NCBI GenBank assembly: GCA_018262975.1
Contig: JADFDG010000003.1
Coordinates: 186,001-250,000 of the forward strand
Direction: 5' to 3'
DNA length: 64,000 nt
Origin: Gammaproteobacteria bacterium
Lineage (GTDB): Bacteria; Pseudomonadota; Gammaproteobacteria; Pseudomonadales; JADFDG01
Shown here: positions 4,962 through 61,687 of the stretch, piece by piece
How positions within the stretch are numbered: position 1 is the first letter of the stretch
Layout of the letters: each line of letters begins with the position of its first letter
The notes under the pieces: generated by a model
Told to the model about the DNA's origin: nothing
Database searches by the model: none
What the model saw: the letters and a program-made list of their open reading frames with translations, nothing else
Translations under genes and position numbers: made by a program

Positions 4962-4985
4962 GTAGTGAGGGGGCCATGCCCCCGA
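4962..4985. repeat. GTAG-REP, single forward copy
   Basis: One complete forward unit, GTAGTGAG followed by the hairpin core GGGGGCCATGCCCCC and GA, lies 14 nt after the fpr stop. It stands alone, without an inverted partner, ahead of the fpr terminator. Confidence 0.85.
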
Positions 4986-5001
4986 TCAGGACGCGTCGCG
5001 C

Positions 5002-5027
5002 AAGGCCCGGCTACTGCCGGGCCTTTT
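5002..5027. terminator. Rho-independent terminator of fpr, overlapping the next gene's 3' end
   Basis: A perfect 10-bp stem (AAGGCCCGGC / GCCGGGCCTT) with a TACT loop is followed by TT on the + strand and carries A residues at its left foot, so it may work in both directions. Its left arm and loop cover the stop codon (5011-5013) of the minus-strand membrane gene. Confidence 0.7.
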
Positions 5028-5499
5028 CGTTCATGGTCGTGCCGCATGCCGCGCTGAAACGCGCATCCAGCTGCGCCATGTCCATGCCGTTGCCGAAGTA
5101 ACTCCACACCTTCGCGCCGGACACGATCAGCAGCGCACAGGCCGGTGCCAGCGCCAGCAGCGTCCACGCGCGCAACTGCGCCCGCTTGCCGGTGAGCACC
5201 GGCATGGCCTGCCACAGCGGTGTGCCCGCCGGCGGGAATTCGCCACTGGCCCGCGCCAGCAGGCCGATGCGGATGAAAGGCAGGCACAGCGCCAGCACCG
5301 ACAGCGGCAGCAGGAAACTCACCGTCAGCATGGCCACCACGCCGCCGGACAGGCCGAACAGGCGATCGCAGAGGAAGTCCGGGGACAGCTTCAGCCAACT
5401 GACGGCGGCCAGGATCGGTAGCTGGGTGGCGGCCAGCAGCAGGGTGGCGCGCAGGGCGCGCGGCCGGTTGGCGGGGCGGATGAGGGGATTGGCGGGCAT
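5011..5499 (-). CDS. Unknown three-helix membrane protein
   Basis: I do not recognise this 162-residue protein. After a basic N-terminus (NRPRALR) it has three strong hydrophobic segments at about residues 17-37, 52-76 and 108-128, consistent with an inner-membrane protein. A polar loop with SPDFLCDRLFG lies between the first two, and a short C-terminal tail carries one Cys (SAACGTTMNEKARQ). I chose the ATG at 5499 (MPANPLIRP); a longer frame to 5586 adds residues that do not look coding and would cross the inverted repeat at 5567-5582. The gene is divergent from the amidase, with 113 nt between starts. No function can be assigned. Confidence 0.55.
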   Translation of the reverse strand: MPANPLIRPANRPRALRATLLLAATQLPILAAVSWLKLSPDFLCDRLFGLSGGVVAMLTVSFLLPLSVLALCLPFIRIGLLARASGEFPPAGTPLWQAMPVLTGKRAQLRAWTLLALAPACALLIVSGAKVWSYFGNGMDMAQLDARFSAACGTTMNEKARQ

Positions 5500-5566
5500 G
5501 CACAGGGATCTGTCGTGTCGTCCGGCGTATTGTGCGGCATGCCTCCGTTCGCCATCAGTGCATATG

Positions 5567-5582
5567 TGGTACGTTCGTACCA
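5567..5582. promoter_or_regulatory. Inverted repeat in the membrane protein/amidase divergent gap
   Basis: TGGTACG and CGTACCA form a 16-bp dyad around a TT centre, 30 nt before the amidase ATG. A symmetric TGGT/ACCA core is typical of operators bound by dimeric helix-turn-helix repressors such as GntR or TetR proteins. The binding factor is unknown. Confidence 0.45.
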
Positions 5583-5612
5583 GCATGAAACCCCAGCCAC
5601 CGGATCCCCGCC

Positions 5613-7025
5613 ATGACCGACCCGCGCATCCATGCCTTCCGTGACGACGTCCTTGCCGACCACGATGCCGTGGCCCTGGCCGGCCTGGTGCGAGCCGGGA
5701 CGGTGAGCGCCGGCGAACTGGTGGAGGCGGCCATTGCGCGCGCCGGGCAGGTCAACGGCGTGCTCAATGCCATCGAGCTGCCCACCTTCGAGCAGGCGCG
5801 CCGCGATGCGCGCTCGCTGCACAGCGGCGTGTTTGCCGGCGTGCCGACCTTCGTCAAGGACAACACCGACCTCGAGGGCCTGCCCACGCGCCACGGTTCG
5901 CGCGCGGTGAACCCGCAGCCGGCGAAGCAGCACGGTGCGTTCGCGGCACAGTACCTCGCGCAGGGATTCAGCGTGCTGGGCAAGAGTTCACTGCCGGAAT
6001 TCGGTTTCAACGCCTCCACCGAGTTCGCCGGCGAGCATCCCACCCGCAACCCCTGGAACCCGGCGTATTCCTCCGGGGCCTCGTCCGGCGGTGCCGCGGC
6101 GCTGGTGGCGGCCGGCGTGGTGCCGGTAGCGCACGCCAACGACGGTGGCGGTTCCATCCGCATTCCCGCCGCCTGTTGCGGGCTGGTCGGCCTGAAGCCC
6201 ACGCGCGGCCGTTTCATCGACAGCGAGCAGGCGCGCTCGCTGCCGGTGAACATCATCGGCGAGGGCATCGTGTCGCGCTCGGTGCGTGACCAGGCGGCGT
6301 TTTTTTCCGGCATGGAGCGCACCTGGTACAACCGCTCGCTGCCGCCGGTCGGCCGGGTGGAGGGCCCGGGCAACCGCCGCCTGCGCATCGGCCTGGTGAT
6401 GGACTCGATCACCGGCACACCCACCTGCGCGGAAACGCGTGCGGTGGTGGAACACACGGCGCGCCTGCTGGAAAGCATGGGACACAGCGTGGAACCGATG
6501 CCGCTACCGGTGCCGCCGACCTTCCTCGAGGACTTCACCACCTACTGGGGAATGCTGTCATTCATGCTGCAGCGCTTCGGCCGGCTGGTGATGAGCCGCG
6601 ACTTCGACGCCGCGCGCATGGACCCGTTCAGCCAGGGCCTGGCTGCCTATTACCGCAAGCGCATGCTGAAGACACCGGGCGTGATCTGGCGCATGAAGCG
6701 TTCCGCGCAGCAGTACGCCGATGGCATCCGCGGCTACGACGCGGTGCTCACGCCGGTGCTGGCGCACACGGTGCCGCAACTGGGGCACCTGAGCCCGGAG
6801 GTGCCATTCGACACGCTGTTCGAGCGCCTGCTGCGTTACGTGGCATTCACGCCGCTGAACAACGCCGCCGGCACGCCGGCGATCTCGCTGCCGATGGGCG
6901 CGTGTGCCAATGGCCTGCCGATCGGCGTGCAGTTGCAGGCCGCGCACGGTGCCGAGCGCACCTTGCTGGAGTTGGCGTTCGCGCTCGAGGCCGCGCAGCC
7001 GTTCCGCCGCATCCAGGACCAGTAG
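5613..7025 (+). CDS. Amidase signature family enzyme
   Basis: The 470-residue protein has the complete Ser-cisSer-Lys catalytic set of amidase-signature hydrolases: Lys82 in FVKDNTD, Ser157 in GASSGG and the nucleophile Ser181 in GGSIRIPA. The family cleaves C-N bonds in many amides and includes GatA, nylon-oligomer hydrolases and peptide amidases; the substrate here is not determinable. No GatB or GatC neighbour exists, so a tRNA amidotransferase role is unlikely. There is no signal peptide. The TAG stop (7023-7025) lies inside a REP unit that begins at 7022, so the present C-terminus (FRRIQDQ) may have been shaped by insertion of that repeat. An inverted repeat lies upstream. Confidence 0.87.
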   Translation: MTDPRIHAFRDDVLADHDAVALAGLVRAGTVSAGELVEAAIARAGQVNGVLNAIELPTFEQARRDARSLHSGVFAGVPTFVKDNTDLEGLPTRHGSRAVNPQPAKQHGAFAAQYLAQGFSVLGKSSLPEFGFNASTEFAGEHPTRNPWNPAYSSGASSGGAAALVAAGVVPVAHANDGGGSIRIPAACCGLVGLKPTRGRFIDSEQARSLPVNIIGEGIVSRSVRDQAAFFSGMERTWYNRSLPPVGRVEGPGNRRLRIGLVMDSITGTPTCAETRAVVEHTARLLESMGHSVEPMPLPVPPTFLEDFTTYWGMLSFMLQRFGRLVMSRDFDAARMDPFSQGLAAYYRKRMLKTPGVIWRMKRSAQQYADGIRGYDAVLTPVLAHTVPQLGHLSPEVPFDTLFERLLRYVAFTPLNNAAGTPAISLPMGACANGLPIGVQLQAAHGAERTLLELAFALEAAQPFRRIQDQ

Positions 7026-7083
7026 AGAGGGGGCCATGCCCCCGATATGGAAAAAAGCATCGGGGGCATGGCCCCCTCGCTAC
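7022..7083. repeat. GTAG-REP inverted pair (BIME)
   Basis: A forward unit at 7022-7045 and a reverse unit at 7060-7083 are separated by 14 nt, with GTAG at both outer ends; together they can fold into one 24-bp hairpin. The amidase stop (7023-7025) and the minus-strand methyltransferase stop (7080-7082) both use the TAG of the two GTAG ends. The inverted pair therefore closes two convergent genes exactly. Confidence 0.9.
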
Positions 7084-7784
7084 GAAGAGCGGGTATCGGT
7101 GCGCACGGGTTTCAGCAGGTTGAACAGCATGCGCAGGTCGCGTGCCGGCAACAGCGGCACGCGTTCCTTGAGCCAGGCCGCCACGCGTTCGTCGCCGGCG
7201 ATGCCCAGCGCCGCGATCACCCGTTCGATCTCGCCGATGGCCGCGCCGTAGGATGTTTCCTGCGCGTCCGGCGTATAGCGCGCCAGCGCCGGCAACTCGC
7301 TGAGCGCGTAGCTGTACACCATCACCGCCTGCGCCAGGTTGATGCTCGGCTGCGGCGATGCCAACGGCACGGTGGTGAGCACGTCGCAGGCATCGAGGTG
7401 CTCGTTGGTCAGGCCGGTGTCCTCCGGGCCGAACACCAGCGCCGCGCGCGTCAGCAGGGCCTGCTTGTCGACCAGCAGGTCCTTGAGTTGCGGCGGGGTG
7501 AGCACGCTGTGGCGATGGTGGCGCAACTTCGCGGTGGTGCCGATGCGCAGGTCGCAATCGGCCACCGCCTCCTCCAGCGTGTCGAACACGGCGGCGCCGT
7601 CGAGGATGTCGTGGCTGTGCATGGCCAGCTGGTAGGCGGGGCCACGGTCACCGTCGATACCGGAGTCGTAGGGGCAGGGGTCGACCAGGCGCAGGTGCGC
7701 GAAGCCCATGGTTTTCAGCGCGCGCGCGGCGGCGCCGATATTGCCCGCGTATTTCGGGCCGACGAGGACGAAGACGAGTTCCAT
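7080..7784 (-). CDS. LasT-like SPOUT RNA methyltransferase
   Basis: The 234-residue protein belongs to the TrmJ/LasT group of SPOUT (trefoil-knot) 2'-O-methyltransferases. Motifs are GPKYAGNIGAAARALKTMGF at the N-terminus, ALVFGPEDTGLTNE in the middle (AdoMet/RNA-binding motif 2) and SINLAQAVMVYSYAL (motif 3 knot). The C-terminal extension, ERVAAWLKERVPLLPARDLRML, resembles E. coli LasT more than TrmJ. Such enzymes methylate tRNA or rRNA ribose using S-adenosylmethionine; the target is unproven. I chose the ATG at 7784 (MELVFVLVG) over a TTG nine nt upstream. The stop codon is supplied by the REP repeat. Its start lies 60 nt from the 3' end of the acyl-CoA dehydrogenase on the same strand. 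Confidence 0.8.
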   Translation of the reverse strand: MELVFVLVGPKYAGNIGAAARALKTMGFAHLRLVDPCPYDSGIDGDRGPAYQLAMHSHDILDGAAVFDTLEEAVADCDLRIGTTAKLRHHRHSVLTPPQLKDLLVDKQALLTRAALVFGPEDTGLTNEHLDACDVLTTVPLASPQPSINLAQAVMVYSYALSELPALARYTPDAQETSYGAAIGEIERVIAALGIAGDERVAAWLKERVPLLPARDLRMLFNLLKPVRTDTRSS

Positions 7785-7810
7785 GGCGCGCAAGATAGCA
7801 CGCCGGCTTG

Positions 7811-7839
7811 ACGTGCCGGCAGGGTGGCTGCCGGCACGT
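7811..7839. terminator. Hairpin downstream of the acyl-CoA dehydrogenase
   Basis: A perfect 11-bp stem (ACGTGCCGGCA / TGCCGGCACGT) with a 7-nt loop lies just beyond the minus-strand gene ending at 7845 and before the methyltransferase start. No U-run follows, so intrinsic termination is plausible but not certain. Confidence 0.55.
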
Positions 7840-7844
7840 GCCGC

Positions 7845-9077
<1,233 letters not shown>

Positions 9078-9131
9078 GGCGGTGTCTCCTGGCAGGACGG
9101 GGGATGCCGGCAGTCTGCGCCCGGGCATACA

Positions 9132-9178
9132 ATGAGCAAAGTGATGTTTTGTCATCACCTGATATGAGTATGGCTCAT
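9132..9178. promoter_or_regulatory. Nested inverted repeats, candidate LysR operator
   Basis: An inner dyad GTGATG (9141-9146) / CATCAC (9153-9158) with a 6-nt AT-rich centre sits inside an outer dyad ATGAGC (9132-9137) / GCTCAT (9173-9178) that reaches the LysR start codon. This sits between the acyl-CoA dehydrogenase and its divergent LysR gene, where autorepression and co-regulation sites are expected. Confidence 0.55.
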
Positions 9179-10088
9179 GACCTTGCCCGCCGACCCGCGC
9201 CTGGACCGCCTCGACCTCAACCTGTTCCGGGTGTTCGACTGCGTGTACCGGGAACGCAACCTCACCCGCGCGGCCGCGCTGCTGCACGTCAGCCAGTCGG
9301 CGGTCAGCCACGCGCTGGCGCGCCTGCGCAGCCAGCTGGACGATCCGCTGTTCGTGCGCGACGGTGCCGGCGTGGTGCCCACGCCGCTGGCCGACCGGCT
9401 GGCCGGCGACATCGGCCAGGCGCTGGCCTTGCTGCAGCAGTCCCTGCAGCGCACGCGCGGTTTCTCGCCGGAGCGTGACCTCGCCCGGGTGACGCTGGCG
9501 ATGAGCGATACGCTGGAGCCGGCCATCCTGCCGCTGCTCGCCGCGCACCTGCGCGCGGCCAGCCCCGCGGCGGAGCTCCATTGCGTGCGCCTGGACCGGG
9601 CCAACCTGCGCACCGACCTCGCCGCCGGGCGCATCGACCTGGCCATCGACGTGGCGCAGCCCACCGCCGACGACGTGCACCATGCCGCCTTGTGGCGCGA
9701 CGAGTTCTGCGTGCTGTCGGCGCGGCGGCGCAAGCTCGACGAGCGCGCCTACCTCGCCGCCAGCCACGTCACCGTGTCTTCGCGGCGCAGCGGCCCCACC
9801 GTGGAAGACATCCTGCTCAGCCGGCTCGGCTACCAGCGGCGCGTGGCTCTGCGCTGCCAGAACTACGAATCGGCCTGCCGCATCGTTGCCGGCAGTGACC
9901 TGTTGCTGACCTTGCCGCGGCGCTATGCGCAGCAGCGCCGGCGCGAATCCGGTGGCGTGTTGTTGTCGCTGCCCATCGCGGTCCCGCCGCTGGAACTGCA
10001 TCTCTACTGGCACCGCCAGCACGACCAGGAGCCGGCCAACCACTGGTTGCGCGGGCAGTTGCTGTCGCTGATGCACGCCCACCTGTAG
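9177..10088 (+). CDS. LysR-type transcriptional regulator
   Basis: The 303-residue protein has an N-terminal winged helix (RLDLNLFRVFDCVY, then RAAALLHVSQSAVSHALARLR, about residues 10-70) and a C-terminal effector-binding domain. The LDLNLFRVF opening and FVRDGAGVVPTPLA after the HTH place it in the NodD/NahR/LinR-like branch of LysR proteins, which often control catabolic genes. Its divergent neighbour is the acyl-CoA dehydrogenase at 7845-9077, the likely target. The ATG at 9177 overlaps the outer arm of the candidate operator. The TAG stop (10086-10088) is the second to fourth base of a GTAG repeat end, so the native C-terminus may have been altered by the repeat. Confidence 0.88.
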   Translation: MTLPADPRLDRLDLNLFRVFDCVYRERNLTRAAALLHVSQSAVSHALARLRSQLDDPLFVRDGAGVVPTPLADRLAGDIGQALALLQQSLQRTRGFSPERDLARVTLAMSDTLEPAILPLLAAHLRAASPAAELHCVRLDRANLRTDLAAGRIDLAIDVAQPTADDVHHAALWRDEFCVLSARRRKLDERAYLAASHVTVSSRRSGPTVEDILLSRLGYQRRVALRCQNYESACRIVAGSDLLLTLPRRYAQQRRRESGGVLLSLPIAVPPLELHLYWHRQHDQEPANHWLRGQLLSLMHAHL

Positions 10089-10179
10089 AGAGGGGGCCGT
10101 GCCCCCGACCCGCGGTTACCTGTAGAGAGGGGGCCATGCCCCCGACAAGCTGGAATCGGGGGCATGGCCCCCTCGCTAC
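10085..10179. repeat. GTAG-REP triple (forward, forward, reverse)
   Basis: Units lie at 10085-10108 (forward), 10122-10145 (forward) and 10156-10179 (reverse), with spacers of 13 and 10 nt. The first carries CGT instead of CAT in the loop, leaving the stem intact. The array fills the gap between two convergent regulator genes; the first unit provides the LysR stop. Confidence 0.9.
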
Positions 10180-10191
10180 AAAAGCGCGCGG

Positions 10192-11070: not shown

Positions 11071-11147
11071 GCGCAAGATAATCCATCCGCCCGGCAAGAA
11101 TATCAATCGCCCGCGATGGCGGGCGGTGGCATGCTCGGTAACGGCAA

Positions 11148-11171
11148 TCGGGGGCGCGGCCCCCTCTATAC
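11148..11171. repeat. Degenerate GTAG-REP in the mmsA promoter region
   Basis: A reverse unit in which the core reads GGGGGCGCGGCCCCC rather than GGGGGCATGGCCCCC, with the GTAG end decayed to GTAT (TATAC on this strand). It lies 22 nt before the mmsA ATG and ends about 9 nt before its Shine-Dalgarno sequence. A separate 7-bp hairpin (CGCCCGC / GCGGGCG, 11108-11125) lies just upstream. Confidence 0.65.
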
Positions 11172-11193
11172 GGGTGTTACGGAGGTGGTGGTC

Positions 11194-12687: not shown

Positions 12688-12700
12688 CCGCGGGGCGCGC

Positions 12701-24635: not shown

Positions 24636-24725
24636 GTAGAGAGGGGGCCATGCCCCCGACCCGCCCTTCGTAGAGAGGGGGCCATGCCCCCGATAGGGCG
24701 GTCGGGGGCATGGCCCCCTCTCTAC
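24636..24725. repeat. GTAG-REP triple (forward, forward, reverse)
   Basis: Units lie at 24636-24659, 24670-24693 (forward) and 24702-24725 (reverse), with spacers of 10 and 8 nt, between mucD and lepA. The ATG of the reverse unit is in frame with lepA, so the open frame runs 34 codons upstream of the true start as MAPSLHTEQ and on; this is not coding. Confidence 0.9.
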
Positions 24726-37215: not shown

Positions 37216-37274
37216 GTAGCGAGGGGGCCATGCCCCCGATTCATCGTCGGTCGGGGGCATGGCCCCCTCGCTAC
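37216..37274. repeat. GTAG-REP inverted pair (BIME)
   Basis: A forward unit (37216-37239) and reverse unit (37251-37274) with an 11-nt spacer lie between rlmD and relA, with GTAG at both outer ends. Both use the GTAGCGAG variant. The pair lies 31 nt before the relA start and would form a strong hairpin in the mRNA if transcription runs through. Confidence 0.9.
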
Positions 37275-43469: not shown

Positions 43470-44456
43470 ATGAACAAGAAGCTGCTTGCTCTGGCCATCG
43501 GCGCCGCTGTTGCCATGCCGGTTGCCGCTCTCGCGGACGGCCCGACGCTGTACGGCAAGATCAACCTGTCGCTCGAGAATTGGGATGACAGCGCGGACGA
43601 CGTGTGGTCGATCGAGAACAACGCGTCGCGCATTGGTGTGAAGGGCAGCGCCGAAACCGGCGTCAGCGGCCTGAAGGGTGTGTACCTCGCCGAGTTCGGC
43701 GTCGACGCCGATGACGGTGACACTGGCAACGGTCCGTTCTCCGGTCGCAACATCTACGCCGGCCTTGCGGGCGACTTCGGTACGGTTCTCGTCGGCAACG
43801 TCGATACCCCGACCAAGACCGTTCAGGGCAAGGTAGACCAGTTCAACGACAGCACCGCCGACATGGGCAATTTTGTATCGGGTGATCTTCGCGCGCCGAA
43901 CGCCGTTGCCTACGTCTCCCCGAAAATTGCTGATGCCCTGACCGTCACCGTTGCCCTGTGGCAGGGTGAAACGGCCACCGGCGCCGACGGCCAGCCGCTG
44001 ACCGGGATCGGTGACGCAGTTTCCGCCTCGGTTGTCTACGAGAAGGATAGCCTGTACCTGGGCTTGGGTCTCGACCAGGAAACCCCGGTAACCGGCGGCG
44101 TGGATGTTGCTGGTGACAACTACAACGACATCATCCGCGCGGTCGCTGGCTACACCACCGACAGTTTCGAAGTCGGTTTCCTGTACCAGACCGCCGAAGG
44201 TGCTGATACCGGCAGCTCCAGCGAAGATACCTCCATGCTGCTGAGCGGCGCGTACAAGACCGGCGACTGGAAGTTCAAGGGTCAGTACCTCCAGACTGAA
44301 GGCGATCTCTCCGACAACACGGAGACCTTCTACGGCGTAGGTGCTGATTACGCGCTTGGCAAGGCGACCACCGTATACGGCTTCCTCGCCAAGGCCGAAG
44401 ATGACGTAGCGATGGACGACCAGGTTATTTCGCTGGGTCTTGAGCAGCGCTTCTGA
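43470..44456 (+). CDS. Gram-negative porin 1
   Basis: The 328-residue outer-membrane protein begins with a signal peptide (MNKKLLALAIGAAVAMPVAALA, cut before DGPTLYGK). It has the general trimeric-porin pattern: PTLYGKINLSLE, SRIGVKGSAETGVSGLKGVY, GRNIYAGLAGDFGTVLVGN, and a terminal strand ending VISLGLEQRF with the C-terminal Phe required for BAM assembly. It is acidic and Asp-rich, suggesting a pore with cation preference, though that is inference. Codon use has more T-ending codons than porin 2. A ribosome site AGGAG lies 8 nt before ATG. A strong terminator follows. Confidence 0.9.
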   Translation: MNKKLLALAIGAAVAMPVAALADGPTLYGKINLSLENWDDSADDVWSIENNASRIGVKGSAETGVSGLKGVYLAEFGVDADDGDTGNGPFSGRNIYAGLAGDFGTVLVGNVDTPTKTVQGKVDQFNDSTADMGNFVSGDLRAPNAVAYVSPKIADALTVTVALWQGETATGADGQPLTGIGDAVSASVVYEKDSLYLGLGLDQETPVTGGVDVAGDNYNDIIRAVAGYTTDSFEVGFLYQTAEGADTGSSSEDTSMLLSGAYKTGDWKFKGQYLQTEGDLSDNTETFYGVGADYALGKATTVYGFLAKAEDDVAMDDQVISLGLEQRF

Positions 44457-45350: not shown

Positions 45351-45374
45351 CCGGGGGCATGGCCCCCTCGCTAC
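45351..45374. repeat. GTAG-REP, single reverse copy
   Basis: A single reverse unit, with the first T changed to C, lies 57 nt before porin 2 in the STN/porin 2 divergent gap. No inverted partner is present. The rest of this 291-nt gap shows no clear promoter. Confidence 0.85.
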
Positions 45375-45430: not shown

Positions 45431-46426
45431 ATGAACAAGAAGCTGCTTGCACTGGCCATCGGCGCTGCCGCCGCGATGCCGTTCGTTGCCGAGGCTGCGG
45501 GCCCGACGCTGTACGGCAAGGTGAACGTCACGGTTGAAAGCCGCGATGACGGCACCACCGACGTCTGGCACGTCGAAAGCAACGACTCGCGCCTTGGCGT
45601 GAAGGGCGACGCCGAGACCGGCGTGACCGGCCTCACCGGCATCTACCAGGCCGAGTTCTCCATGAACGTGGACGACGGCGCCGGCCCCTTCGGCCAGCGC
45701 AACATCTTCGCCGGCCTGAAGGGCAGCTTCGGCCAGGTGCAGTTCGGCTACTTCGACACGCCGGTGAAGACCGCGCAGGGCAAGGTCGACCAGTTCAACG
45801 ACCTGTCCGGCGACATCAAGAACATCATGCCGGGCGAGAACCGCGGCTCGAACATGATCCAGTACAGCACGCCCAAGCTGGCTGACCTGGTCACCGTCAC
45901 CGTCGCCGCCATGCCGGGCGAGAACGCCAACGTTGACGGCGAGGCCGGCAACGAGACCGACATCGCCGACATGATCTCCGCCTCGGTGGTGCTGCAGTCC
46001 GGCGATTTCTACGCCGCCCTGGGCCTGGACCAGAACGCTTCCATTTCCGGCTCGGCTGACGCCGACGACTTCACCACCGACCGTGGTGACATCGTGCGCC
46101 TGGTTGCCATGTACACCCTGGACGCGCTGGAACTGGGTGCCATCTTCCAGACCACCGAGGAAGTCGGCACCGGCGCGGACGCCGAAGACACCGCCATGCT
46201 GGCCAGCGTCGGCTACAAGCTGAGCGAGGAGTGGAAACTGAAGGCGCAGTACGGTGTGGCCGAAGGCGACACCAACGACGCCGAGAAGACCCTGCTCGGC
46301 CTTGGCGCCGACTACAAGCTGGGCAAGAGCACCAAGCTGTTCGGCCTGCTCACCAAGCTGGAAGAAGACAACGCCACGGACACCGAGCTGACCACCATCG
46401 CCCTGGGTCTCGAGCAGAACTTCTGA
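45431..46426 (+). CDS. Gram-negative porin 2 (paralogue of porin 1)
   Basis: The 331-residue porin is a clear paralogue of porin 1. They share the signal peptide start MNKKLLALAIGAA, the same ribosome-binding leader (GGAGATGTTCGA before the ATG), GPTLYGKVNV, GVKGDAETGVTGLTGIYQAEF, VKTAQGKVDQFND and a final strand ending LGLEQNF. The mature N-terminus is probably AGPTLYGK. Residues differ most in loops, where this copy is richer in Asp, Glu and Asn. It lacks the CATATGTC repeat upstream of porin 1. A terminator follows. Confidence 0.9.
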   Translation: MNKKLLALAIGAAAAMPFVAEAAGPTLYGKVNVTVESRDDGTTDVWHVESNDSRLGVKGDAETGVTGLTGIYQAEFSMNVDDGAGPFGQRNIFAGLKGSFGQVQFGYFDTPVKTAQGKVDQFNDLSGDIKNIMPGENRGSNMIQYSTPKLADLVTVTVAAMPGENANVDGEAGNETDIADMISASVVLQSGDFYAALGLDQNASISGSADADDFTTDRGDIVRLVAMYTLDALELGAIFQTTEEVGTGADAEDTAMLASVGYKLSEEWKLKAQYGVAEGDTNDAEKTLLGLGADYKLGKSTKLFGLLTKLEEDNATDTELTTIALGLEQNF

Positions 46427-46501: not shown

Positions 46502-46525
46502 TCGGGGGCATGGCCCCCTCTCTAC
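46502..46525. repeat. GTAG-REP, single reverse copy
   Basis: A single complete reverse unit lies between the porin 2 terminator and the fabB stop at 46539. It is the second unpaired reverse copy in this 1.2-kb region, one on each side of porin 2. Confidence 0.88.
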
Positions 46526-53580: not shown

Positions 53581-53714
53581 GTAGCGAGGGGGCCATGCCC
53601 CGATCACGCACTTGTAGCGAGGGGGCCATGCCCCCGACCCGAAAGGGAGGCTCCGGCCTCCCTTTTTCGTTTCCGCTCCGGTAAAAGACGTCGGGGGCAT
53701 GGCCCCCTCGCTAC
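53581..53714. repeat. GTAG-REP cluster (two forward, one reverse) around a terminator
   Basis: Forward units lie at 53581-53603 (one C deleted from the core) and 53614-53637; a reverse unit lies at 53691-53714. The gap between the second and third (53 nt) holds the adk terminator. This is the only inverted pair in the window with a spacer above 14 nt. Confidence 0.88.
53642..53667 (+). terminator. Rho-independent terminator of adk
   Basis: AAAGGGAGGC / GCCTCCCTTT is a perfect 10-bp stem with a TCCG loop followed by T residues. It is nested between two opposing REP units. Confidence 0.88.
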
Positions 53715-54820: not shown

Positions 54821-54907
54821 GCTTTCACATCCTTCCGGAAAACGTTTCGACAATGCTTCTGACCCCCGCGACGGGGATGCTTCGCACACCTAAGCCATTG
54901 AAAAGTT

Positions 54908-54935: not shown

Positions 54936-54991
54936 CCGGATCGACGTCACGTCAATGGCGTCATTACCGCGGTAGCTTAGGAGAAACGAAA

Positions 54992-55660
54992 ATGGCTAAA
55001 GCCAAGAAGAAAGTGGCCCGCAAGGCCGCCCCGAAGAAAGCCAAGGTCAACGCTGCTGTTGTAGCCAAGACCGCTGGTAAGGAAGTTGCTGCTGCCTCCG
55101 CCAAGCTCAAGGCTGCGAAAGCTGCCCTGAAAGCTGCGAAGGCCGCTGCCAAGAAAGCCCGCAAGGCCAAGAGCGGCGTTGCCGAAGCGAAAGCCAAGGT
55201 GTCTGCTGCCACGGCTGACGTGAAAGCCGCCAAGACCGGCGTGACCAAGGCCAAGAAGTCGGCCAAGGCCGCTGCTGCCAAGGCCAAGAAAGCTGCTCGC
55301 GCTGCTGCTCGCAAGGCGAAGATCGCCGAGCGCAAGGCCGCTGCCAAAGCCAAGAAAGCCGCCAAGCGCGCTGCTGCCAAGGCCAAGAAAGCTGCCAAGA
55401 AAGCCGCTGCCAAGCAGAAAGCTGCTGAGCGCAAGGCTGCCCTGAAGGCCAAGAAAGCCGCCGCCAAGGCCGCTGCCAAGGCCAAGAAGGAAGCCAAGAA
55501 GGCCAAGAAAGCCGCTCCGAAGAAAGGCGCTGCCAAAAAGGCCGCTGCCAAGAAGCCGGCTGCCAAGAAAGTAGCGAAGAAGGCTGCCAAGAAGCCGGCC
55601 CGCAAGGCCAAGGCTGTCAAGAAGGCTGCCAAGAAGCCGGCGCGCAAGGCGAAGAAGTAA
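54992..55660 (+). CDS. Lys/Ala-rich histone H1-like DNA-binding protein
   Basis: The 222-residue protein is made almost only of Ala and Lys, with some Arg, Pro and Val, arranged as imperfect repeats such as AAKAKKAAKK and KKPARKAK. It should be an extended, strongly basic helix that binds DNA without sequence preference. It resembles eukaryotic H1 tails, chlamydial Hc2 and Pseudomonas AlgP, and also Lys/Ala-rich nucleoid proteins of other proteobacteria. An excellent AGGAG site precedes the ATG at 54992. It has its own promoter and terminator. GCT and AAA codons are used more than in neighbouring genes. Repeat number is likely to vary between strains. Confidence 0.88.
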   Translation: MAKAKKKVARKAAPKKAKVNAAVVAKTAGKEVAAASAKLKAAKAALKAAKAAAKKARKAKSGVAEAKAKVSAATADVKAAKTGVTKAKKSAKAAAAKAKKAARAAARKAKIAERKAAAKAKKAAKRAAAKAKKAAKKAAAKQKAAERKAALKAKKAAAKAAAKAKKEAKKAKKAAPKKGAAKKAAAKKPAAKKVAKKAAKKPARKAKAVKKAAKKPARKAKK

Positions 55661-55696
55661 TTCGCCCCGCGTAAGCGGACAGCTACAAGAGTAGTC

Positions 55697-55731
55697 GAGC
55701 CCCGGGCCTTGTCCCGGGGCTCAGTCTTTTT
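55697..55731 (+). terminator. Rho-independent terminator of the histone-like gene
   Basis: GAGCCCCGGG / CCCGGGGCTC is a perfect 10-bp stem with a CCTTGT loop, followed by AGTCTTTTT. Confidence 0.88.
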
Positions 55732-55800
55732 GGGGTCGGTAAAATACCGGCAATGTCCCACCACCACTTCCGAATTCAGCCCTAGCCAGCCGCAGCCACC

Positions 55801-57735
55801 ATGCACGCCGCCGACATCCTCGGTCCCGATGGTCCCTTCAGTCGCGTCATCGACGGCTTTGCCGCCCGCGCTGTCCAGCAGGAGATGGCCGAGGCCGTCG
55901 AGCAGGCGATCGCCGACGATGCGCGCCTGGTGGTGGAGGCCGGCACCGGCACCGGCAAGACCTTCGCCTACCTGGTGCCGGCACTGCTGTCGCGCCGCAA
56001 GGTGATCGTTTCCACCGGCACGCGCAGCCTGCAGGACCAGTTGTTCCACCGCGACATCCCGCGCGTGCTGAAGGCACTCAACATCCCTGCGCGCGTCGCG
56101 CTGCTCAAGGGGCGCAGCAACTACCTGTGCCCCTATCGCCTGGAGACCAGCCTCGACGATGGCAGTTTCGCCTCGCGCGAGATCGTCAGCGACCTGCAGA
56201 AGGTCGCCCGCTGGGCGACGTCCACCGTCGACGGCGACATCGCCGAACTGGCGAGCATTCCCGAGGGCGCCGGCGTATGGCCCTTCGTCACCAGCACCGC
56301 CGACAACTGCCTGGGCACCGACTGCCCGATGATCGAGCAGTGCCCGGTGGCCCGCGCGCGCAAGCGGGCGCAGGAAGCGGACCTCGTGGTGGTCAACCAC
56401 CACCTGCTGTTCGCCGATGCCGCGCTCAAGGACAACGGCGTGGGCGAGATCCTGCCCAGCGCCAACGCCATCATCATCGACGAGGCCCACCAGGTGGGCG
56501 AGGTGGCCTCGCAGTTCTTCGGCAAGCAACTGTCCAGCCGCCAGCTCGCTGAACTCGCGCGTGACGCGGTGGTGGAGGGTGGCCGTGGCGCCGCCGACCA
56601 GCGCGGCCTGTTCGATGCCGCCAGTGCCGTGGAGAAGGGCGTGCTCGACATGCGCCTGGCGCTGGGCGAGGGCACCCGCCGCGCCGCTTGGGCCGAAGTG
56701 GCCATGCGCACCGACCTGCACGACGCCATCGAGGACCTTGCCAGCGCGCTGGCCTCGCTCGAGGAAGAGTTGGGCGTGGCCGCCGAGCGCAGCCCGGGCC
56801 TGGCCAAGGTGCACGAGCGCGCGCAGGACCTGCTGATCGCCTTCGGCGCGCTCACCGGCAATGCCCCCGTGGACCAGGTGCACTGGTTCGAGACCTTCCA
56901 GCGCGCCTTCCTCGTGCGCATGACGCCGCTCACCGTGGCCGAGCCGTTCCGCGCGCTGGTGTACGGCAAGCCGGCGGCGTGGATCTTCACCTCCGCCACG
57001 CTGGCGGTGGGCGATGACTTCCGGCACATGACCGAGGAACTCGGGCTGGAAGACGCGCGCACGCTCAAGCTGGCCAGCCCGTTCGATTTCTCGCGGCAGG
57101 CGGCGCTGTACGTGCCGGAGAACATGCCCGATCCCACCAGCGCCGATTACACGCGCGCGGTGGTGGAGGCGGCCATCCCGGCACTGGAGGCCAGCCGTGG
57201 CCGCGCCTTCCTGCTGTTCACCTCGCACCGCGCCCTGCAGGAGGCCGCCCGCCTGCTCGAAGGCCGCCTGCCGTACCCGCTGTACGTGCAGGGCACGGCC
57301 GGGCGCAACGAACTGCTGGAAGCCTTCCGCAAGCACGGCAACGCCATCCTGCTGGGCACCGGCTCGTTCTGGGAGGGCATCGACGTGCGCGGCGAGGCGC
57401 TGTCGCTGGTGATCATCGACAAGCTGCCGTTCGCCTCGCCGGGCGACCCGCTGCTGGCGGCGCGCATGGACGCCCTCAAGCGCCAGGGCCGCAATGCCTT
57501 CACCGAGTACCAGATCCCGCAGGCGGTGATCACCCTCAAGCAGGGCGCCGGCCGCCTGATCCGCGACGTCACCGACACCGGCGTGCTGATGCTGTGTGAC
57601 CCGCGCCTGCTGTCCAAGGGCTACGGCAAGTTGTTCCTCGACAGCCTGCCGTCGATGCGCAGGACGCGTAAACTCGAAGTGGTACAGAATTTCTTTGCCG
57701 CGCTGGATGCCCTGGCCGGTACCGCCGATACCTGA
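55801..57735 (+). CDS. yoaA: DinG-family ATP-dependent DNA helicase YoaA
   Basis: The 644-residue superfamily 2 helicase has Walker A in EAGTGTGKT (46-54), the iron-sulfur cysteines Cys110, Cys170, Cys175 and Cys181, the DEAH box at 227-230 and the C-terminal motif VI GAGRLIRDVTDTG. The XPD/DinG-like Fe-S arrangement and length indicate YoaA, which helps resolve replication-blocking lesions with HolC. No LexA box is visible upstream. It is followed after 3 nt by tsaB, as yoaA and tsaB are adjacent in E. coli. Confidence 0.92.
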   Translation: MHAADILGPDGPFSRVIDGFAARAVQQEMAEAVEQAIADDARLVVEAGTGTGKTFAYLVPALLSRRKVIVSTGTRSLQDQLFHRDIPRVLKALNIPARVALLKGRSNYLCPYRLETSLDDGSFASREIVSDLQKVARWATSTVDGDIAELASIPEGAGVWPFVTSTADNCLGTDCPMIEQCPVARARKRAQEADLVVVNHHLLFADAALKDNGVGEILPSANAIIIDEAHQVGEVASQFFGKQLSSRQLAELARDAVVEGGRGAADQRGLFDAASAVEKGVLDMRLALGEGTRRAAWAEVAMRTDLHDAIEDLASALASLEEELGVAAERSPGLAKVHERAQDLLIAFGALTGNAPVDQVHWFETFQRAFLVRMTPLTVAEPFRALVYGKPAAWIFTSATLAVGDDFRHMTEELGLEDARTLKLASPFDFSRQAALYVPENMPDPTSADYTRAVVEAAIPALEASRGRAFLLFTSHRALQEAARLLEGRLPYPLYVQGTAGRNELLEAFRKHGNAILLGTGSFWEGIDVRGEALSLVIIDKLPFASPGDPLLAARMDALKRQGRNAFTEYQIPQAVITLKQGAGRLIRDVTDTGVLMLCDPRLLSKGYGKLFLDSLPSMRRTRKLEVVQNFFAALDALAGTADT

Positions 57736-57738
57736 CCG

Positions 57739-58449
57739 ATGAGACTGCTGGCCCTCGATACCTCCACGGAAACCTGCTCGGTCGCCCTGCGCGTGGGCGA
57801 TAACGTGCAGGTGTTGCGCCATGCCGGCGCACGCGAGCAGACCGCCCATGTGCTGCCGATGGTGCAGCAGGTGCTGGCCGGTGCCGGCCTGTCGCTGCGC
57901 GATCTTGATGCCATTGCCTGCGCGCACGGCCCCGGTGCTTTCACCGGCGTGCGCGTGGCAGTGAGCGTGGCGCAGGGCCTGGCCTACGGCGCGCAGTTGC
58001 CGGCCATCGGCGTGTCCACGCTGGCGGTGCTGGCACAGCAGGCGCTGCGCCTGGCCGCGGCGGACGGCAAGGCGGTCACGCACGTGTTGCCGCTGCTGGA
58101 TGCGCGCATGGGTGAACTGTATGCCGGCGCCTACGCGGTCGGCGGCGACGGGCTGGTCGAGGCGCTGCTGCCCGACCGGCTGGCGCGCCCGGAGGACATC
58201 ATCGCCGCGCTGCCGGCACTGCCGGCCGGCGCGTCCTGGTGTGCCATTGGCAGCGGCTGGGCCGCTTACCCGGCACTGGCCGACGCGCTGGGTGTGACGC
58301 CGCGGGTGGCCGAGCCGGACGCGCAGGATGTGCTGGCGCTGGCGGTGCGCGCACTCGCACGCGGCGAGGCGGTGCCCGCCGAGCGCCTGCTGCCGGTGTA
58401 CCTGCGTGATACCGTCGCCTGGAAGAAACTGTCGGAGCAGGGCAAGTGA
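57739..58449 (+). CDS. tsaB: tRNA t6A modification protein TsaB
   Basis: The 236-residue protein of the ASKHA fold starts MRLLALDTSTETCSVAL and has ACAHGPGAFTGVRVAVSVAQGLA, the TsaB hallmark, and LLDARMGELYAG. TsaB pairs with TsaD and TsaE to form threonylcarbamoyladenosine at position 37 of ANN-reading tRNAs. It follows yoaA after 3 nt and its stop overlaps the start of the thioesterase gene. Confidence 0.93.
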   Translation: MRLLALDTSTETCSVALRVGDNVQVLRHAGAREQTAHVLPMVQQVLAGAGLSLRDLDAIACAHGPGAFTGVRVAVSVAQGLAYGAQLPAIGVSTLAVLAQQALRLAAADGKAVTHVLPLLDARMGELYAGAYAVGGDGLVEALLPDRLARPEDIIAALPALPAGASWCAIGSGWAAYPALADALGVTPRVAEPDAQDVLALAVRALARGEAVPAERLLPVYLRDTVAWKKLSEQGK

Positions 58450-58883
58450 TGCACTTCGAGGGCTGGGACCATCCGGCGCCGCACATCCTGCCGATGATCG
58501 TCGGCCACGAGAGCATCGACGTGATGGGCCACGCCAACAACGTCGAGTACCTGCGCTGGCTGGAGCGCGTGGCCTGGGACCATTCGATTGCACTGGGCCT
58601 CGACTGGGCTGCCTACCAGCGCCTGGATCGCTCCATGGTGGCGCGCCGTACCGAGCTGGATTACCTTGCCCCGGCCTTCGAGGGCGATGCGCTGCTGGCC
58701 GGCACCTGGATCGTGGAAAACGACCAGCGCCTGTCCATCACCCGCCACTACCAGCTGGTGCGCCCGAAGGACGGCAAGACGCTGTTGCGTGGCCGCACCC
58801 AGTGGGTGTGCGTGGAAATCTCCACCGGCAAGCCCAGGCGCATGCCGCCGGAGTTCCTGCACGGCTACCAGACCACCGCCTGA
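58449..58883 (+). CDS. Hot-dog thioesterase (YbgC/4HBT-like)
   Basis: The 144-residue protein has a hot-dog fold pattern with HESIDVMGHANNVEYLRWLERVAW, close to the D-x-x-G-H-x-N-N-x-x-Y block of 4-hydroxybenzoyl-CoA thioesterase-type enzymes, in which the Asp is catalytic. It should hydrolyse an acyl-CoA or acyl-ACP; the substrate is unknown. ATG 58449 overlaps the tsaB stop (TGATG); a GTG one codon earlier is possible. It is followed by uppP. Confidence 0.85.
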   Translation: MHFEGWDHPAPHILPMIVGHESIDVMGHANNVEYLRWLERVAWDHSIALGLDWAAYQRLDRSMVARRTELDYLAPAFEGDALLAGTWIVENDQRLSITRHYQLVRPKDGKTLLRGRTQWVCVEISTGKPRRMPPEFLHGYQTTA

Positions 58884-58898
58884 TACGGAATAGTCCGC

Positions 58899-59726
58899 GT
58901 GGACCTGATCATCTTCCTCAAAGCGTTGTTCCTCGGCCTGCTCGAAGGCATCACCGAGTTCCTGCCGATCTCCTCCACCGGCCACCTGATCATCGCCGGC
59001 GAACTCATCGGCTTCCTCGAACAGCCCTTGCGCAGCGTGTTCATGGTGGCCATCCAGCTCGGCGCCATCCTCGCCATCCTCTGGCTGTACCGCGAGAAGT
59101 TCACCCGCGTGACGGTCGGCGTGTTCCAGGGCGATGCCGCCAGCTGGCGCTTCGCCACCAACCTGCTGATCGCCTTCCTGCCGGCCATGGTGCTGGGCCT
59201 GCTGTTCTACAAGGTGATCAAGGGCGTGCTGTTCTTCCCGGTGCCGGTGGCCATTGCATTGATCGTTGGCGGCATCGTGATCCTGTGGGCCGAGAAGCGC
59301 GCCCACGTCGCGCGCGTGCACGAAGTGGACGACATGAGTTGGCAGGACGCGCTGAAAGTGGGCCTGTGCCAGTGCCTGGCGCTGGTGCCGGGCACCTCGC
59401 GCTCCGGCGCCACCATCATCGGTGGCCTGTTCGTGGGCCTGTCGCGCAAGGCGGCCACCGAGTTCTCGTTCTTCCTCGCCGTACCCACCATGATCGCGGC
59501 CACCGTCTACGACGTGTACAAGCACCGCGACCTGTTCAGCATGGACGACGTGGCCATCCTCGCCACCGGCTTCATCGCCGCCTTCCTCGCTGCCTTCCTC
59601 ACGGTAAAGGCACTGGTGGCGTTCGTGGCGAAGCACAACTTCACGCCGTTCGCCTGGTACCGCATCGTGTTCGGCCTGGTGGTGCTCGGCCTGTGGGCCG
59701 GCGGCATCATCACCTGGCAGGAATAA
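58899..59726 (+). CDS. uppP: Undecaprenyl-diphosphate phosphatase UppP (BacA)
   Basis: The 275-residue polytopic membrane protein recycles the lipid carrier for peptidoglycan and O-antigen synthesis. The active-site motifs are LLEGITEFLPISSTGH near the N-terminus and LVPGTSRSGATIIGG. About seven or eight hydrophobic helices follow the BacA layout. GTG 58899 (VDLIIFLKALFLGLLEG) is the start. Length matches E. coli UppP (273). Confidence 0.95.
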   Translation: MDLIIFLKALFLGLLEGITEFLPISSTGHLIIAGELIGFLEQPLRSVFMVAIQLGAILAILWLYREKFTRVTVGVFQGDAASWRFATNLLIAFLPAMVLGLLFYKVIKGVLFFPVPVAIALIVGGIVILWAEKRAHVARVHEVDDMSWQDALKVGLCQCLALVPGTSRSGATIIGGLFVGLSRKAATEFSFFLAVPTMIAATVYDVYKHRDLFSMDDVAILATGFIAAFLAAFLTVKALVAFVAKHNFTPFAWYRIVFGLVVLGLWAGGIITWQE

Positions 59727-59731
59727 GCGCC

Positions 59732-60538
59732 ATGCGGTCGTTCCGCATGCCCGATTACCTCGATGCCCGCGTGGTGGCGCCCGACGAAGTCGCCGCGCTG
59801 GGGCTGCCGGCCTGGCCGGGCGGCGACAACCGTCGCCACGAACACGACGGCCTGGTGCTGGTGTGCGACGAGCGCGGCCTGCACCTCGAGCTGCACGACG
59901 GCAGCCGCCACATCAAGCTGCGCGTGGAATTCATCGGTGGCGTGCTGCAGGACCGCGCGAAGATCCAGCAGGCGCGCGCGGAGATGCTGGTGCGTGCCTG
60001 CGGCGTGCCCAACGACGGCACGCCCTGGCGGGTGGTGGATGCCACCGCCGGACTCGGCCGCGATGCCTTCCTGCTGGCCACCTGCGGCGCCGACGTGACG
60101 ATGCTGGAGCGCCACCCGGTGCTGGCCCTGCTGCTCGAAGACGCATTGTTCACGCTGGCCGGGGGGATTCCCGAGGTCGCCGCGCGCCTGCACCTGCGCC
60201 AGCAGGACGCGCTGGCGTACCTGCAGGCGCTGTCCGGCGAGGAACGTCCGCAGGTGGTTTATTGCGACCCGATGTTCCCGTCGCGCACCAAGAGCGCGGC
60301 GGTGGGCGGTGACATGCAGGTGCTGCATGCGCTGATCGGTGACACGCCGGACGCGGATGAACTGTTTGGTGCCGCGCTGCGTGCGGCCACGCGGCGGGTG
60401 GTGGTGAAGCGGCCGTTGCGCGCCGAACCGCTGCGCGCGCCGGGGCTGGAAAACATCCGCCCCAGCTACGCGCTGGAAGGCCGCGCCAGCCGCTTCGACG
60501 TCTACCTCATCGAAACCCTGCCGCTGCGCTCTCTGTAG
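59732..60538 (+). CDS. rsmJ: 16S rRNA (guanine-1516-N2)-methyltransferase RsmJ
   Basis: The 268-residue enzyme has the AdoMet motif VVDATAGLGRDAFLLA and the catalytic-type YCDPMFPSR, preceded by the RsmJ region IKLRVEFIGG. It methylates G1516 of 16S rRNA. The ATG at 59732 starts 5 nt after uppP. The TAG stop (60536-60538) lies inside the first bases of a truncated REP, so the C-terminus PLRSL may have been created by insertion of the repeat. Confidence 0.9.
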   Translation: MRSFRMPDYLDARVVAPDEVAALGLPAWPGGDNRRHEHDGLVLVCDERGLHLELHDGSRHIKLRVEFIGGVLQDRAKIQQARAEMLVRACGVPNDGTPWRVVDATAGLGRDAFLLATCGADVTMLERHPVLALLLEDALFTLAGGIPEVAARLHLRQQDALAYLQALSGEERPQVVYCDPMFPSRTKSAAVGGDMQVLHALIGDTPDADELFGAALRAATRRVVVKRPLRAEPLRAPGLENIRPSYALEGRASRFDVYLIETLPLRSL

Positions 60539-60547
60539 AGAGGGGGC
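60535..60547. repeat. Truncated GTAG-REP at the rsmJ 3' end
   Basis: Only GTAGAGAGGGGGC remains; the right half of the core is missing and is replaced by sequence leading into the stop of the convergent monooxygenase gene at 60551. It supplies the rsmJ stop codon. Confidence 0.75.
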
Positions 60548-60550
60548 GGA

Positions 60551-61519
60551 TCAGAGGCTCTTCGCGAAGCGCGCTTTCGCGGCGTCGTATTCGCGCTTGA
60601 GTTGCGCGACCACTTCCGCGGCCGGCTTCACGTCGTGGATCGAGCCCACGCCCTGGCCGGCGCCCCAGATGTCCTTCCAGGCCTTGGCCGAGGTGTTGCC
60701 GCCGCTGCCGAAGTTCATGGTCGACTTGTCGGCCGACGGCAGGTTGTCCGGGTCCATGCCGGCGGCGCGGATCGACGGCGCCAGGTAGTTGCCGTGCACG
60801 CCGGTGAACAGCGACGAGTAGACGATGTCCTTTGCCGCGGCGTCCACCAGGCCCTGCTTGTATTCCGGCGTGGCGTTGGCCTCGGCGGTGGCGATGAAAC
60901 GCGTGCCGATGTAGGCGAGGTCGGCGCCCATCGCCAGCGCGCCGGCGATCGACGCGCCGTTGGCGATCGAGCCGGACAGCGCGACGGGGCCGTCCCAGAA
61001 TTCACGCACTTCACTCACCAGCGCGAACGGGCTGAGCGTGCCCGCGTGGCCGCCGGCGCCGGCGCAGACCAGGATCAGGCCGTCCACGCCCTCGCTGATG
61101 GCTTTCTTCGCGTGGCGGATGTTGATCACGTCGTGCAGCACGATGCCGCCCCAGCCGTGCACCGCGTCGACCACGATCGCCGGCGCGCGCAGGCTGGTGA
61201 TGACGATCGGCACCTTGTGCTTCGCGCAGATCTGCAGGTCTTCCTCGAGGCGGTTGTTGCTGGTGTGGATGATCAGGTTGACCGCGTAGGGCGCCACTTT
61301 CGCGCCGGGGTTGGCGGCCTGGTAGTCGGCCAGTTCGGTCTCGATGCGCGTCAGCCACTCGTCGAGCACGTGCGCCGGGCGCGCGTTGAGCGAGGGGAAC
61401 GAGCCGACGATGCCGGCCTTGCACTGGGCGATCACCAGCTCCGGGCCGGAGACGATGAACAGCGGGGAAGCGATCACGGGCAGCGACAGGCGGCCTTCGA
61501 GAACGGCGGGGATCGGCAT
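60551..61519 (-). CDS. Nitronate monooxygenase / 2-nitropropane dioxygenase family protein
   Basis: The 322-residue FMN-dependent TIM-barrel protein begins MPIPAVLEGRLSLPVIASPLF and has VCAGAGGHAGTLSPFALV and the later GADLAYIGTRFIAT, the FMN phosphate-binding block. Family members oxidise alkyl nitronates; many relatives act as enoyl reductases (FabK) or are uncharacterised. With no fatty acid genes adjacent, I keep the broad family name. The start is ATG 61519. Convergent with rsmJ, from which it is separated by a truncated REP. Confidence 0.82.
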   Translation of the reverse strand: MPIPAVLEGRLSLPVIASPLFIVSGPELVIAQCKAGIVGSFPSLNARPAHVLDEWLTRIETELADYQAANPGAKVAPYAVNLIIHTSNNRLEEDLQICAKHKVPIVITSLRAPAIVVDAVHGWGGIVLHDVINIRHAKKAISEGVDGLILVCAGAGGHAGTLSPFALVSEVREFWDGPVALSGSIANGASIAGALAMGADLAYIGTRFIATAEANATPEYKQGLVDAAAKDIVYSSLFTGVHGNYLAPSIRAAGMDPDNLPSADKSTMNFGSGGNTSAKAWKDIWGAGQGVGSIHDVKPAAEVVAQLKREYDAAKARFAKSL

Positions 61520-61626
61520 GGTCCGGTACTCCTGGTTGGACGGGACGACCCGGAGTCTGGCCCCCCGCCGGCAGCCGGGGCCATTACCCGGGATGACAAA
61601 TCATTCACCGCAACCTCCGCCCACCT

Positions 61627-61687
61627 GTAGAGAGGGGGCCATGCCCCCGACCGCTTTTGTTCATCGGGGGCATGGCCCCCTCGCTAC
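61627..61687. repeat. GTAG-REP inverted pair (BIME)
   Basis: A forward unit (61627-61650) and reverse unit (61664-61687) with a 13-nt spacer lie in the 207-nt divergent gap between the monooxygenase and the split-barrel genes. The ends are GTAGAGAG and GTAGCGAG. A TAGAAT follows at 61707-61712 and may be a -10 element for the + strand genes. Confidence 0.9.

Follow-up and report, generated by a model that had tools for sequence, protein, structure and literature searches.

A new REP sequence family, very probably spread by a single RAYT transposase gene that lies between copies of it

The window, a stretch of 64,000 nt, carries a short repeat unit with the consensus YGTAG-NGA-GGGGGC-CAT-GCCCCC-GAY. 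Position counts over 151 units showed sharp ends, with positions 0–23 near-invariant except for the fifth base, and with Y at −1 in 146/151 and at +24 in 141/151 units. The GTAG foot is joined to the stem by a linker of three bases (NGA), three conserved bases (GAY) follow the stem on its other side, and the units have the REP design of a GTAG/GTRG foot adjoining a short palindrome of 20–40 nt. The family is uniform, since 197 of the 265 units found within three mismatches are exact.

Searching both strands of the window for the core GGGGGCCATGCCCCC with up to 3 mismatches gave 57 matches (some of them self-hits of the palindrome, a few due to chance), compared to 8.87 ± 2.95 in 100 shuffles, the largest of which reached 19. 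With GTAGNGAGGGGGCCATGCCCCCGA, again allowing up to 3 mismatches, 19 full units were located at 10 loci. The sequence-only reading had reported about 20 copies at 11 loci; the eleventh, at 60535, is a left half only (GTAGAGAGGGGGC) that lacks the right arm. The loop variants it described are present, CGT at 10085 and a GCG-type loop with a GTAT foot at 11148, with CAT elsewhere. Its statement that copies occur only between genes or at stop codons holds inside the window, where none lies within a predicted gene, but fails outside it, where a 1.144-Mb sample contains 143 clusters, 6 of them within predicted genes, mnmE and mnmC among these. At gathering scores, Rfam gave no match in the window. 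The T run that follows the hairpin of an intrinsic terminator is lacking in the units, there being no conserved run at +24 to +31 (T in 75, 32, 35, 51, 63, 65, 56 and 41 of 151 units), although the segment is mildly T-rich on average.

Table 1. REP units in the window (positions of the 64,000-nt stretch). Units are grouped into the ten full-unit loci as 7022+7060; 10085+10122+10156; 24636+24670+24702; 37216+37251; 53581+53614+53691; 61627+61664; the rest are single.
Feature	Position	Strand	Mismatches
REP unit, single	4962..4985	+	0
REP unit; GTAG holds TAG stop of amidase gene 5613-7025	7022..7045	+	
REP unit, partner of 7022; GTAG holds TAG stop of tRNA/rRNA methyltransferase gene 7080-7784 (-)	7060..7083	-	
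REP unit, CGT loop; GTAG holds TAG stop of LysR-type gene 9183-10088	10085..10108	+	
REP unit	10122..10145	+	
REP unit, inverted partner of 10122	10156..10179	-	
Diverged REP unit, GTAT foot, GCG-type loop	11148..11171	-	3
REP unit	24636..24659	+	
REP unit	24670..24693	+	
REP unit, inverted partner of 24670	24702..24725	-	
REP unit	37216..37239	+	
REP unit, inverted partner of 37216	37251..37274	-	
REP unit, single	45351..45374	-	1
REP unit, single	46502..46525	-	
REP unit, right arm one C shorter	53581..53604	+	3
REP unit	53614..53637	+	
REP unit, inverted partner of 53614, 53-nt spacer	53691..53714	-	
Half REP (GTAG + left arm only); GTAG holds TAG stop of RsmJ-like gene 59747-60538	60535..60547	+	
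REP unit	61627..61650	+	
REP unit, inverted partner of 61627	61664..61687	-	

Three full units of the window (7022, 7060 and 10085) and the half unit share their TAG with a gene stop, and 43 of 840 predicted genes take their TAG stop from a REP or half REP. A further stop, at 61630, ends an ORF not accepted as a gene by the gene caller.

A check named beforehand was that further copies should exist outside the window, and this was borne out by 566 copies (up to 3 mismatches) in the 3.31-Mb genome, compared to 0 for the reversed control. With this high copy number and mainly extragenic location, the population resembles REPINs, as it does in its excess of inverted doublets: among 83 clusters in a 464-kb sample (the window plus 20 stretches; units with up to 6 mismatches), 31 are doublets with GTAG outward (><), versus three pairs with GTAG inward (<>) and three in the same direction (>>). 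Doublet spacers of 18–22 nt follow a loose asymmetric consensus, which scored 259 for 22 spacers (mean 182, largest 199 in 200 shuffles). We considered A or C at the fifth base as a mark of the left and right units of a doublet, and found no asymmetry (9 AA, 6 AC, 5 CC, 4 CA, 1 GA). No exact match to the 24-mer was found in viral contigs.

One gene for a Y1/HuH (Y1_Tnp) transposase was found in the genome, and its product is a REP-associated tyrosine transposase (RAYT; NF047646, 137.7 bits, cut-off 80). Inverted REP doublets flank the gene (L031:1456-1923), one to either side, as the other check named beforehand had called for, and the gene's stop is the TAG of a REP. Together with the 566 copies, this single REP-flanked RAYT supports the proposal that the units, with their GTAG foot and palindrome, are REPs of the RAYT-mobilised design. 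The best solved relative of the protein is E. coli TnpA-REP 4er8 (entry name TnpArep; E = 8.5e-06), in whose alignment DHIH pairs with EHMH and DYIVANPLRAG with DYIYINPVKHG; judged only by this alignment and the Y1_Tnp model, the protein is predicted to have the HuH motif and the catalytic tyrosine. It is at most 55% identical to the RAYTs in a scan of named genomes, from which very near records were possibly left out. In a scan of 80 related RAYT loci, 57 showed a hairpin with a GTRG tag that is present in at least two similar copies next to the gene, and at 38 of these 57 the foot is followed by GA; at the remaining 23 loci the scan found no repeated GTRG hairpin.

Among published REPs, the nearest relatives that we saw are PF7 (GTGGCGAGGGGGCTTGCCCCCG) and PF1 (GTGGGAGGGGGCTTGCCCCCGAT) of Pseudomonas fluorescens, which have in common with the unit here the G5C/GC5 stem, a GTRG foot and GA before the stem; PF7 also shares the three-base linker and PF1 the GAT after the stem, whereas the loop is CCATG here and CTTG in PF7/PF1, and the foot GTAG rather than GTGG (PMC3686654). 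The sequence-only reading did not recognise the family and, despite these very similar published REPs, the exact 15-base core is indeed absent from the papers searched. GTAG-1 (Di Nocera et al., 2013; PMC3733652) is alike in its GTAG foot, unpaired bases between foot and stem and three conserved bases on the far side, and GTAG REPs share with those here the doublets, sites downstream of genes, REP-supplied TAG stops, which are thus already published, and some intragenic copies; however, by the paper's text the GTAG-1 linker is a dinucleotide, leaving two unpaired bases as against three (NGA) here. We conclude that the RAYT/REP (REPIN) system described here adds a new sequence family to a well-known class of mobile DNA in bacteria.

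Copy density is highest around the RAYT gene, with 33 units in 20 kb, compared to a mean of 3 and a maximum of 11 in the 78 blocks off the RAYT contig. Nunvar et al. (2010) report, for a few genomes, REPs concentrated near rayt in regions of up to two hundred kilobases, with over a third of them near rayt in Thauera (PMC2817692). The peak here fits that pattern; unlike in those genomes, the RAYT contig, of 200 kb, holds 121 of the 566 copies, and the rest are dispersed over the remaining contigs. The REPINs of P. fluorescens SBW25 likewise have the inverted doublet as their mobile unit and form clusters beside RAYTs (Bertels and Rainey, 2011), but doublets there were reported as random over extragenic space, whereas 20-kb blocks here hold from 0 to 33 units (PMC3116915). 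Within the RAYT contig, once two low-GC islands are left out, density falls only modestly with distance (Spearman −0.39, p = 0.04 for units; −0.28, p = 0.14 for clusters). Copying at the level of arrays was observed near the gene, on contig C25, where a five-unit array recurs 2.1 kb away with 170/175 bases alike inside and flanks alike at 8/40 and 6/40, homology ending at the outer GTAGs. Duplication of a gene together with its REPs at 123.6–126.6 kb of this contig was ruled out, homology being confined to the REP array. With the arrays at 121–127.5 kb left out, neighbouring spacers on C25 are alike (93 pairs, mean 0.221 versus 0.143; 37 of 2,000 permutations as high), whereas off C25 no such likeness was found (32 pairs; 1,314 of 2,000 permutations). 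Confined as it is to one contig, this likeness was not retained as proof of local copying, nor was a resemblance of doublets near the RAYT gene to those flanking it, which is weak (p = 0.03–0.05).

We regard the repeat unit as almost certainly a non-autonomous REP sequence that depends for its mobility on the genome's single RAYT (TnpA-REP), acting in trans, and the repeat as very probably spread by this one gene framed by copies of it. Single-strand cleavage of a REP by its own RAYT is documented for the E. coli, S. maltophilia and Marinomonas proteins (PMC8266576). If it acts like the TnpA-REP proteins already characterised, the RAYT here would bind the single-stranded REP hairpin, guided by the GTAG foot, and single-stranded DNA would be cut and rejoined beside the foot; we infer that the RAYT moves the copies in this way, by a single-strand mechanism. 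Most copies would arise and persist as inverted doublets (REPINs), some as larger arrays, at intergenic sites immediately downstream of genes.

That the repeats are instead hairpins of host origin, maintained for a cellular function (transcription termination, protection of mRNA 3′ ends or binding of gyrase or IHF, for example), appears highly improbable. Such a role would suit the perfect short palindrome and the location of most clusters downstream of genes (39 in 21.5 kb of convergent gaps versus 19 in 33.1 kb of divergent gaps), but the unpaired GTAG foot and the GA are conserved as strongly as the stem, the same doublets frame the RAYT gene, the units within mnmE and mnmC are protein-coding segments, and an entire array recurs with homology stopping at its GTAGs. 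The REPs, once mobile, could still have acquired a host role later. Rather unlikely, in our view, are REPs whose GTAG belongs to a target already present at the site, as the flanking tetranucleotide does in IS608, so that the TAG stops were hit and not made. Here TAG falls exactly on the stop at 34 cluster ends, only five same-strand REPs are read through within 60 nt of a gene 3′ end, and all 12 REP-stop or half-REP-stop proteins with a near full-length NCBIfam match (of 19 such proteins scanned; five had no match and two partial-domain matches only) reach to within 7 positions of the model end, so that none of the 12 is clearly truncated. Taking TAA as proxy for TAG, however, YG precedes the TAG stop in 16/64 REP-free genes, as it does TAA in 26/97 (p = 0.86), and would precede it in 52/107 (p = 0.0015) were the REP-borne stops original (50/636 before TGA); moreover, the repeated array carries GTAG at both ends. 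These data point to a TAG that arrives with the element.

The peak at the RAYT gene suggests that REPs spread preferentially near their source. A position effect of the chromosome, or import of a REP-rich block, is a less probable origin of the peak, if one to be taken seriously: outside the islands the RAYT contig is copy-rich even at a good distance from the gene, with 10 units per 20 kb at 45–70 kb, and the fall of copies with distance is modest. On the other hand, dnaA lies on another contig (C4, at 62.6 kb), where 20-kb blocks hold 3–10 units, GC skew is negative or about zero along nearly all of the RAYT contig, and the dense stretch has normal genome GC, contains the housekeeping gene hemE and shows array-level copying. 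More tentatively, and at somewhat less than even probability, the mobile REP population may still be radiating from its single RAYT source, with density falling with distance, arrays copied a few kilobases off, REP-poor low-GC islands breaking the field, and gene ends entered almost only in the frame where the element's own GTAG becomes the new stop, so that about 5% of genes would now end on such an element or on what is left of one. The movement of REPs in cells is poorly understood (PMC8266576). With its one RAYT, a uniform REP family and copies densest at the source gene, this genome offers a simple natural case, in which comparison of sister strains could reveal the landing sites of new copies, the manner of their arrival, and whether stops are targets or by-products.

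The REP doublet in MnmC sits in a linker of variable length, so that alignment cannot show an insertion, and we discarded it as an empty-site case; the REP-coded insert in MnmE, compared at the protein level, is missing from 19 of 19 orthologues. Among 389 other genomes, none has the element itself at the mismatches allowed, and five have an identical hairpin with a linker one base shorter. Relatives were represented by 55 other genomes of the same order, all of other families. One genome of that order, G218, has the identical foot and hairpin, with the linker again one base shorter (GTAGGAGGGGGCCATGCCCCCGA), beside a RAYT 46% identical to the one here; the 21-base pattern, at up to one mismatch, matches 7 times there (2 forward, 5 reverse) versus 506 times here (257 forward, 249 reverse).

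The sequence-only reading had claimed about 20 copies of a GTAG-type REP at 11 loci in the window; the repeat itself occurs far above chance, and with the 24-base consensus and up to three mismatches we found 19 units at 10 places, the locus at 60535 having just the foot and left arm. Further copies occur throughout the window's own genome (3,306,067 bases, 29 contigs, 99.95% complete), with 292 in forward and 274 in reverse orientation and none for the reversed control. At up to six mismatches, a 1.144-Mb sample contained 287 units (197 exact, 68 with 1–3 mismatches and 22 with 4–6). Over the first 464 kb, six mismatches yielded eight matches of the reversed pattern (its only ones) and three of the true pattern, so the six-mismatch class was left out of the unit statistics. 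The element derived from 151 units is Y-GTAG-N-GA-GGGGGC-CAT-GCCCCC-GA-Y. Its commonest cluster form is the GTAG-outward doublet (31 of 83), followed by singles (30) and '>><' triplets (9); spacers of GTAG-outward pairs span 8–53 nt, many being 19–22 nt, and a loose consensus resembling CGCTTTTGCTTTTCAACAAA is common to those of 18–22 nt (n = 22 spacers).

The genome search found a single Y1_Tnp gene, which lies outside the window at ~134.5 kb of contig C25. From an ATG picked by eye (L031:1456), it encodes a 155-residue protein that scored 137.7 bits against NF047646, the REP-associated tyrosine transposase model (cut-off 80; query with a 33-residue upstream extension), and 46.3 bits against the Y1_Tnp model, and it also matches the solved TnpA-REP 4er8. 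The suspected association with such a transposase (RAYT) was borne out, the gene being flanked on either side by inverted REP doublets, with a REP's TAG serving as its stop codon. Among the best 80 of 110 loci with relatives of this RAYT in the named collection, identity was at most 55%; in a strict recount of a looser first count, the gene in 57 of these 80 loci adjoined a GTRG-tagged hairpin having two or more similar copies, the scan detected no repeated GTRG hairpin in 23, and GA followed the foot in 38.

REP density per 20-kb block ranges from 0 to 33 units, and the maximum is at the RAYT gene, where the 10 kb on each side together contain 33 units grouped in 12 clusters (10 clusters by our own subtraction of two belonging to the array family described below). 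The 78 blocks off the RAYT contig average 2.96 units and 1.72 clusters, with maxima of 11 and 7, and the origin region (dnaA, contig C4) is not the peak. By rising distance class from RAYT, there are 33, 21.6, 12, 14 and 10.2 units per 20 kb, after dropping two low-GC stretches of C25 and shortening distances beyond the second by 17.5 kb. These stretches, which have hardly any REP on an otherwise REP-rich contig, resemble late-acquired islands. Since REP clustering near rayt genes was already described for four genomes by Nunvar et al. (2010; PMC2817692), the peak supports the RAYT link and is not itself new.

Array-level copying is seen near the RAYT gene, with C25 arrays a few kilobases apart. 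Two five-unit arrays are alike at 170 of 175 bases and their flanks at 8/40 and 6/40, no more than chance. Homology stops at the outer GTAG feet: the array was copied as one unit with those feet as its limits. A third array matches part of the five-unit array at 148 of 160 bases (flanks, 14/40 and 6/40).

Placement was examined in the window plus 54 stretches (1.144 Mb; 265 units, 143 clusters), with genes predicted by our own simple model rather than a standard program. Seventy clusters lie between same-direction genes, 39 between convergent and 19 between divergent ones; the corresponding intergenic DNA amounts to 70.8, 21.5 and 33.1 kb. Of the remaining clusters, 9 fall at the ends of stretches and 6 within genes. 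GTAG faces a gene 3' end at 121 cluster ends and the opposite side does so at 27. In 34 of the 121 the TAG falls exactly on the stop, 13 start 1–7 nt past it and 74 lie farther. Among 840 genes no shorter than 300 nt, 43 terminate on a REP once the 9 half units are included. At 60535-60547 and eight other sites a half REP, consisting of foot and left arm alone, still supplies the stop codon of a gene, as though this codon had been retained after hairpin decay.

Locations of REP-associated and other features
Feature	Location	Contig	Observation
mnmE	L121:7168-8502	C4	single REP read as GEGAMPP
mnmC	L128:1809-3770	C7	REP doublet in interdomain linker
alpha/beta hydrolase gene			three REP units inside
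rsmG	L121:11887-12498		read-through REP at gene end
read-through gene	L164:11660-13444		ends in turn on half unit, hence also among the 43
phosphoethanolamine--lipid A transferase gene	L125:2739-4400		EptA/MCR-like; ends on REP stop
five-unit array	124318-124492	C25	
five-unit array	126412-126586	C25	
third array	123632-123791	C25	
low-GC stretch	0-38 kb	C25	5-kb bins mostly 0.53-0.63
low-GC stretch	103-120.5 kb	C25	5-kb bins mostly 0.53-0.63
repeat protein gene	54992-55660	window	lysine/alanine-rich, 33-nt period
nearby gene pair	43515-44456; 45476-46426	window	264-nt stretch 75% alike

Whether REPs bring these stops or target existing ones was approached through stop context. In REP-free genes, YG precedes TAG in 16 of 64 cases, much as it precedes TAA (26 of 97); counting REP-borne stops as original gives 52 of 107 for TAG (p = 0.0015), a result that hinges on TAA as the model because TGA has a different context (50 of 636). 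Of the 19 proteins scanned whose stop lies in a REP or half REP, 12 gave near full-length NCBIfam matches, and all 12 end within seven positions of the model end, a count made without a control set. Same-strand REPs read through within 60 nt of a gene end number five, versus 34 REP stops, and the four of these that we translated are read in a single frame, as SEGAMPP, REGAMPP or a decayed form. As random insertion would give two read-throughs per stop, their scarcity points either to selection against C-terminal tails or to a targeting rule at work, and we rank neither above the other. The REP-ended transferase scores above its domain model's cut-off and below every MCR model cut-off listed.

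All 19 of the aligned orthologues from the same order lack the mnmE REP segment (~10 residues); in two of them the position is occupied by two or three other residues. MnmE and MnmC are enzymes of one tRNA wobble-uridine modification pathway, and the presence of REPs in both genes is possibly a coincidence.

Relatives searched comprised 55 genomes of the order within an even draw of 389. At the allowed mismatches the element itself was absent from both sets, bar one three-mismatch match in G008, a shorter-linker form. Five of the 389 (four in one genus, plus G218, of the same order) have an identical hairpin whose linker is two bases long, and in G218 it adjoins a RAYT 46% identical to that here. 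RAYTs of three other genomes (G112, G008 and G139) are 38–41% identical and their nearby hairpins share the CCATG loop, with different stems; G163 gave matches of 25% only. Hairpin sequence and RAYT similarity are thus not strictly parallel. The identification as REP made from the window was right; the class is well described, and the family here is a new sequence family. Added interest lies in how simple this case is, with a single RAYT, a single REP family, source-centred build-up and sharp stop-codon registration.

Elsewhere in the window, the lysine/alanine-rich repeat protein may be histone H1-like or AlgP-like, and the two nearby genes sharing a similar stretch are probably paralogues.
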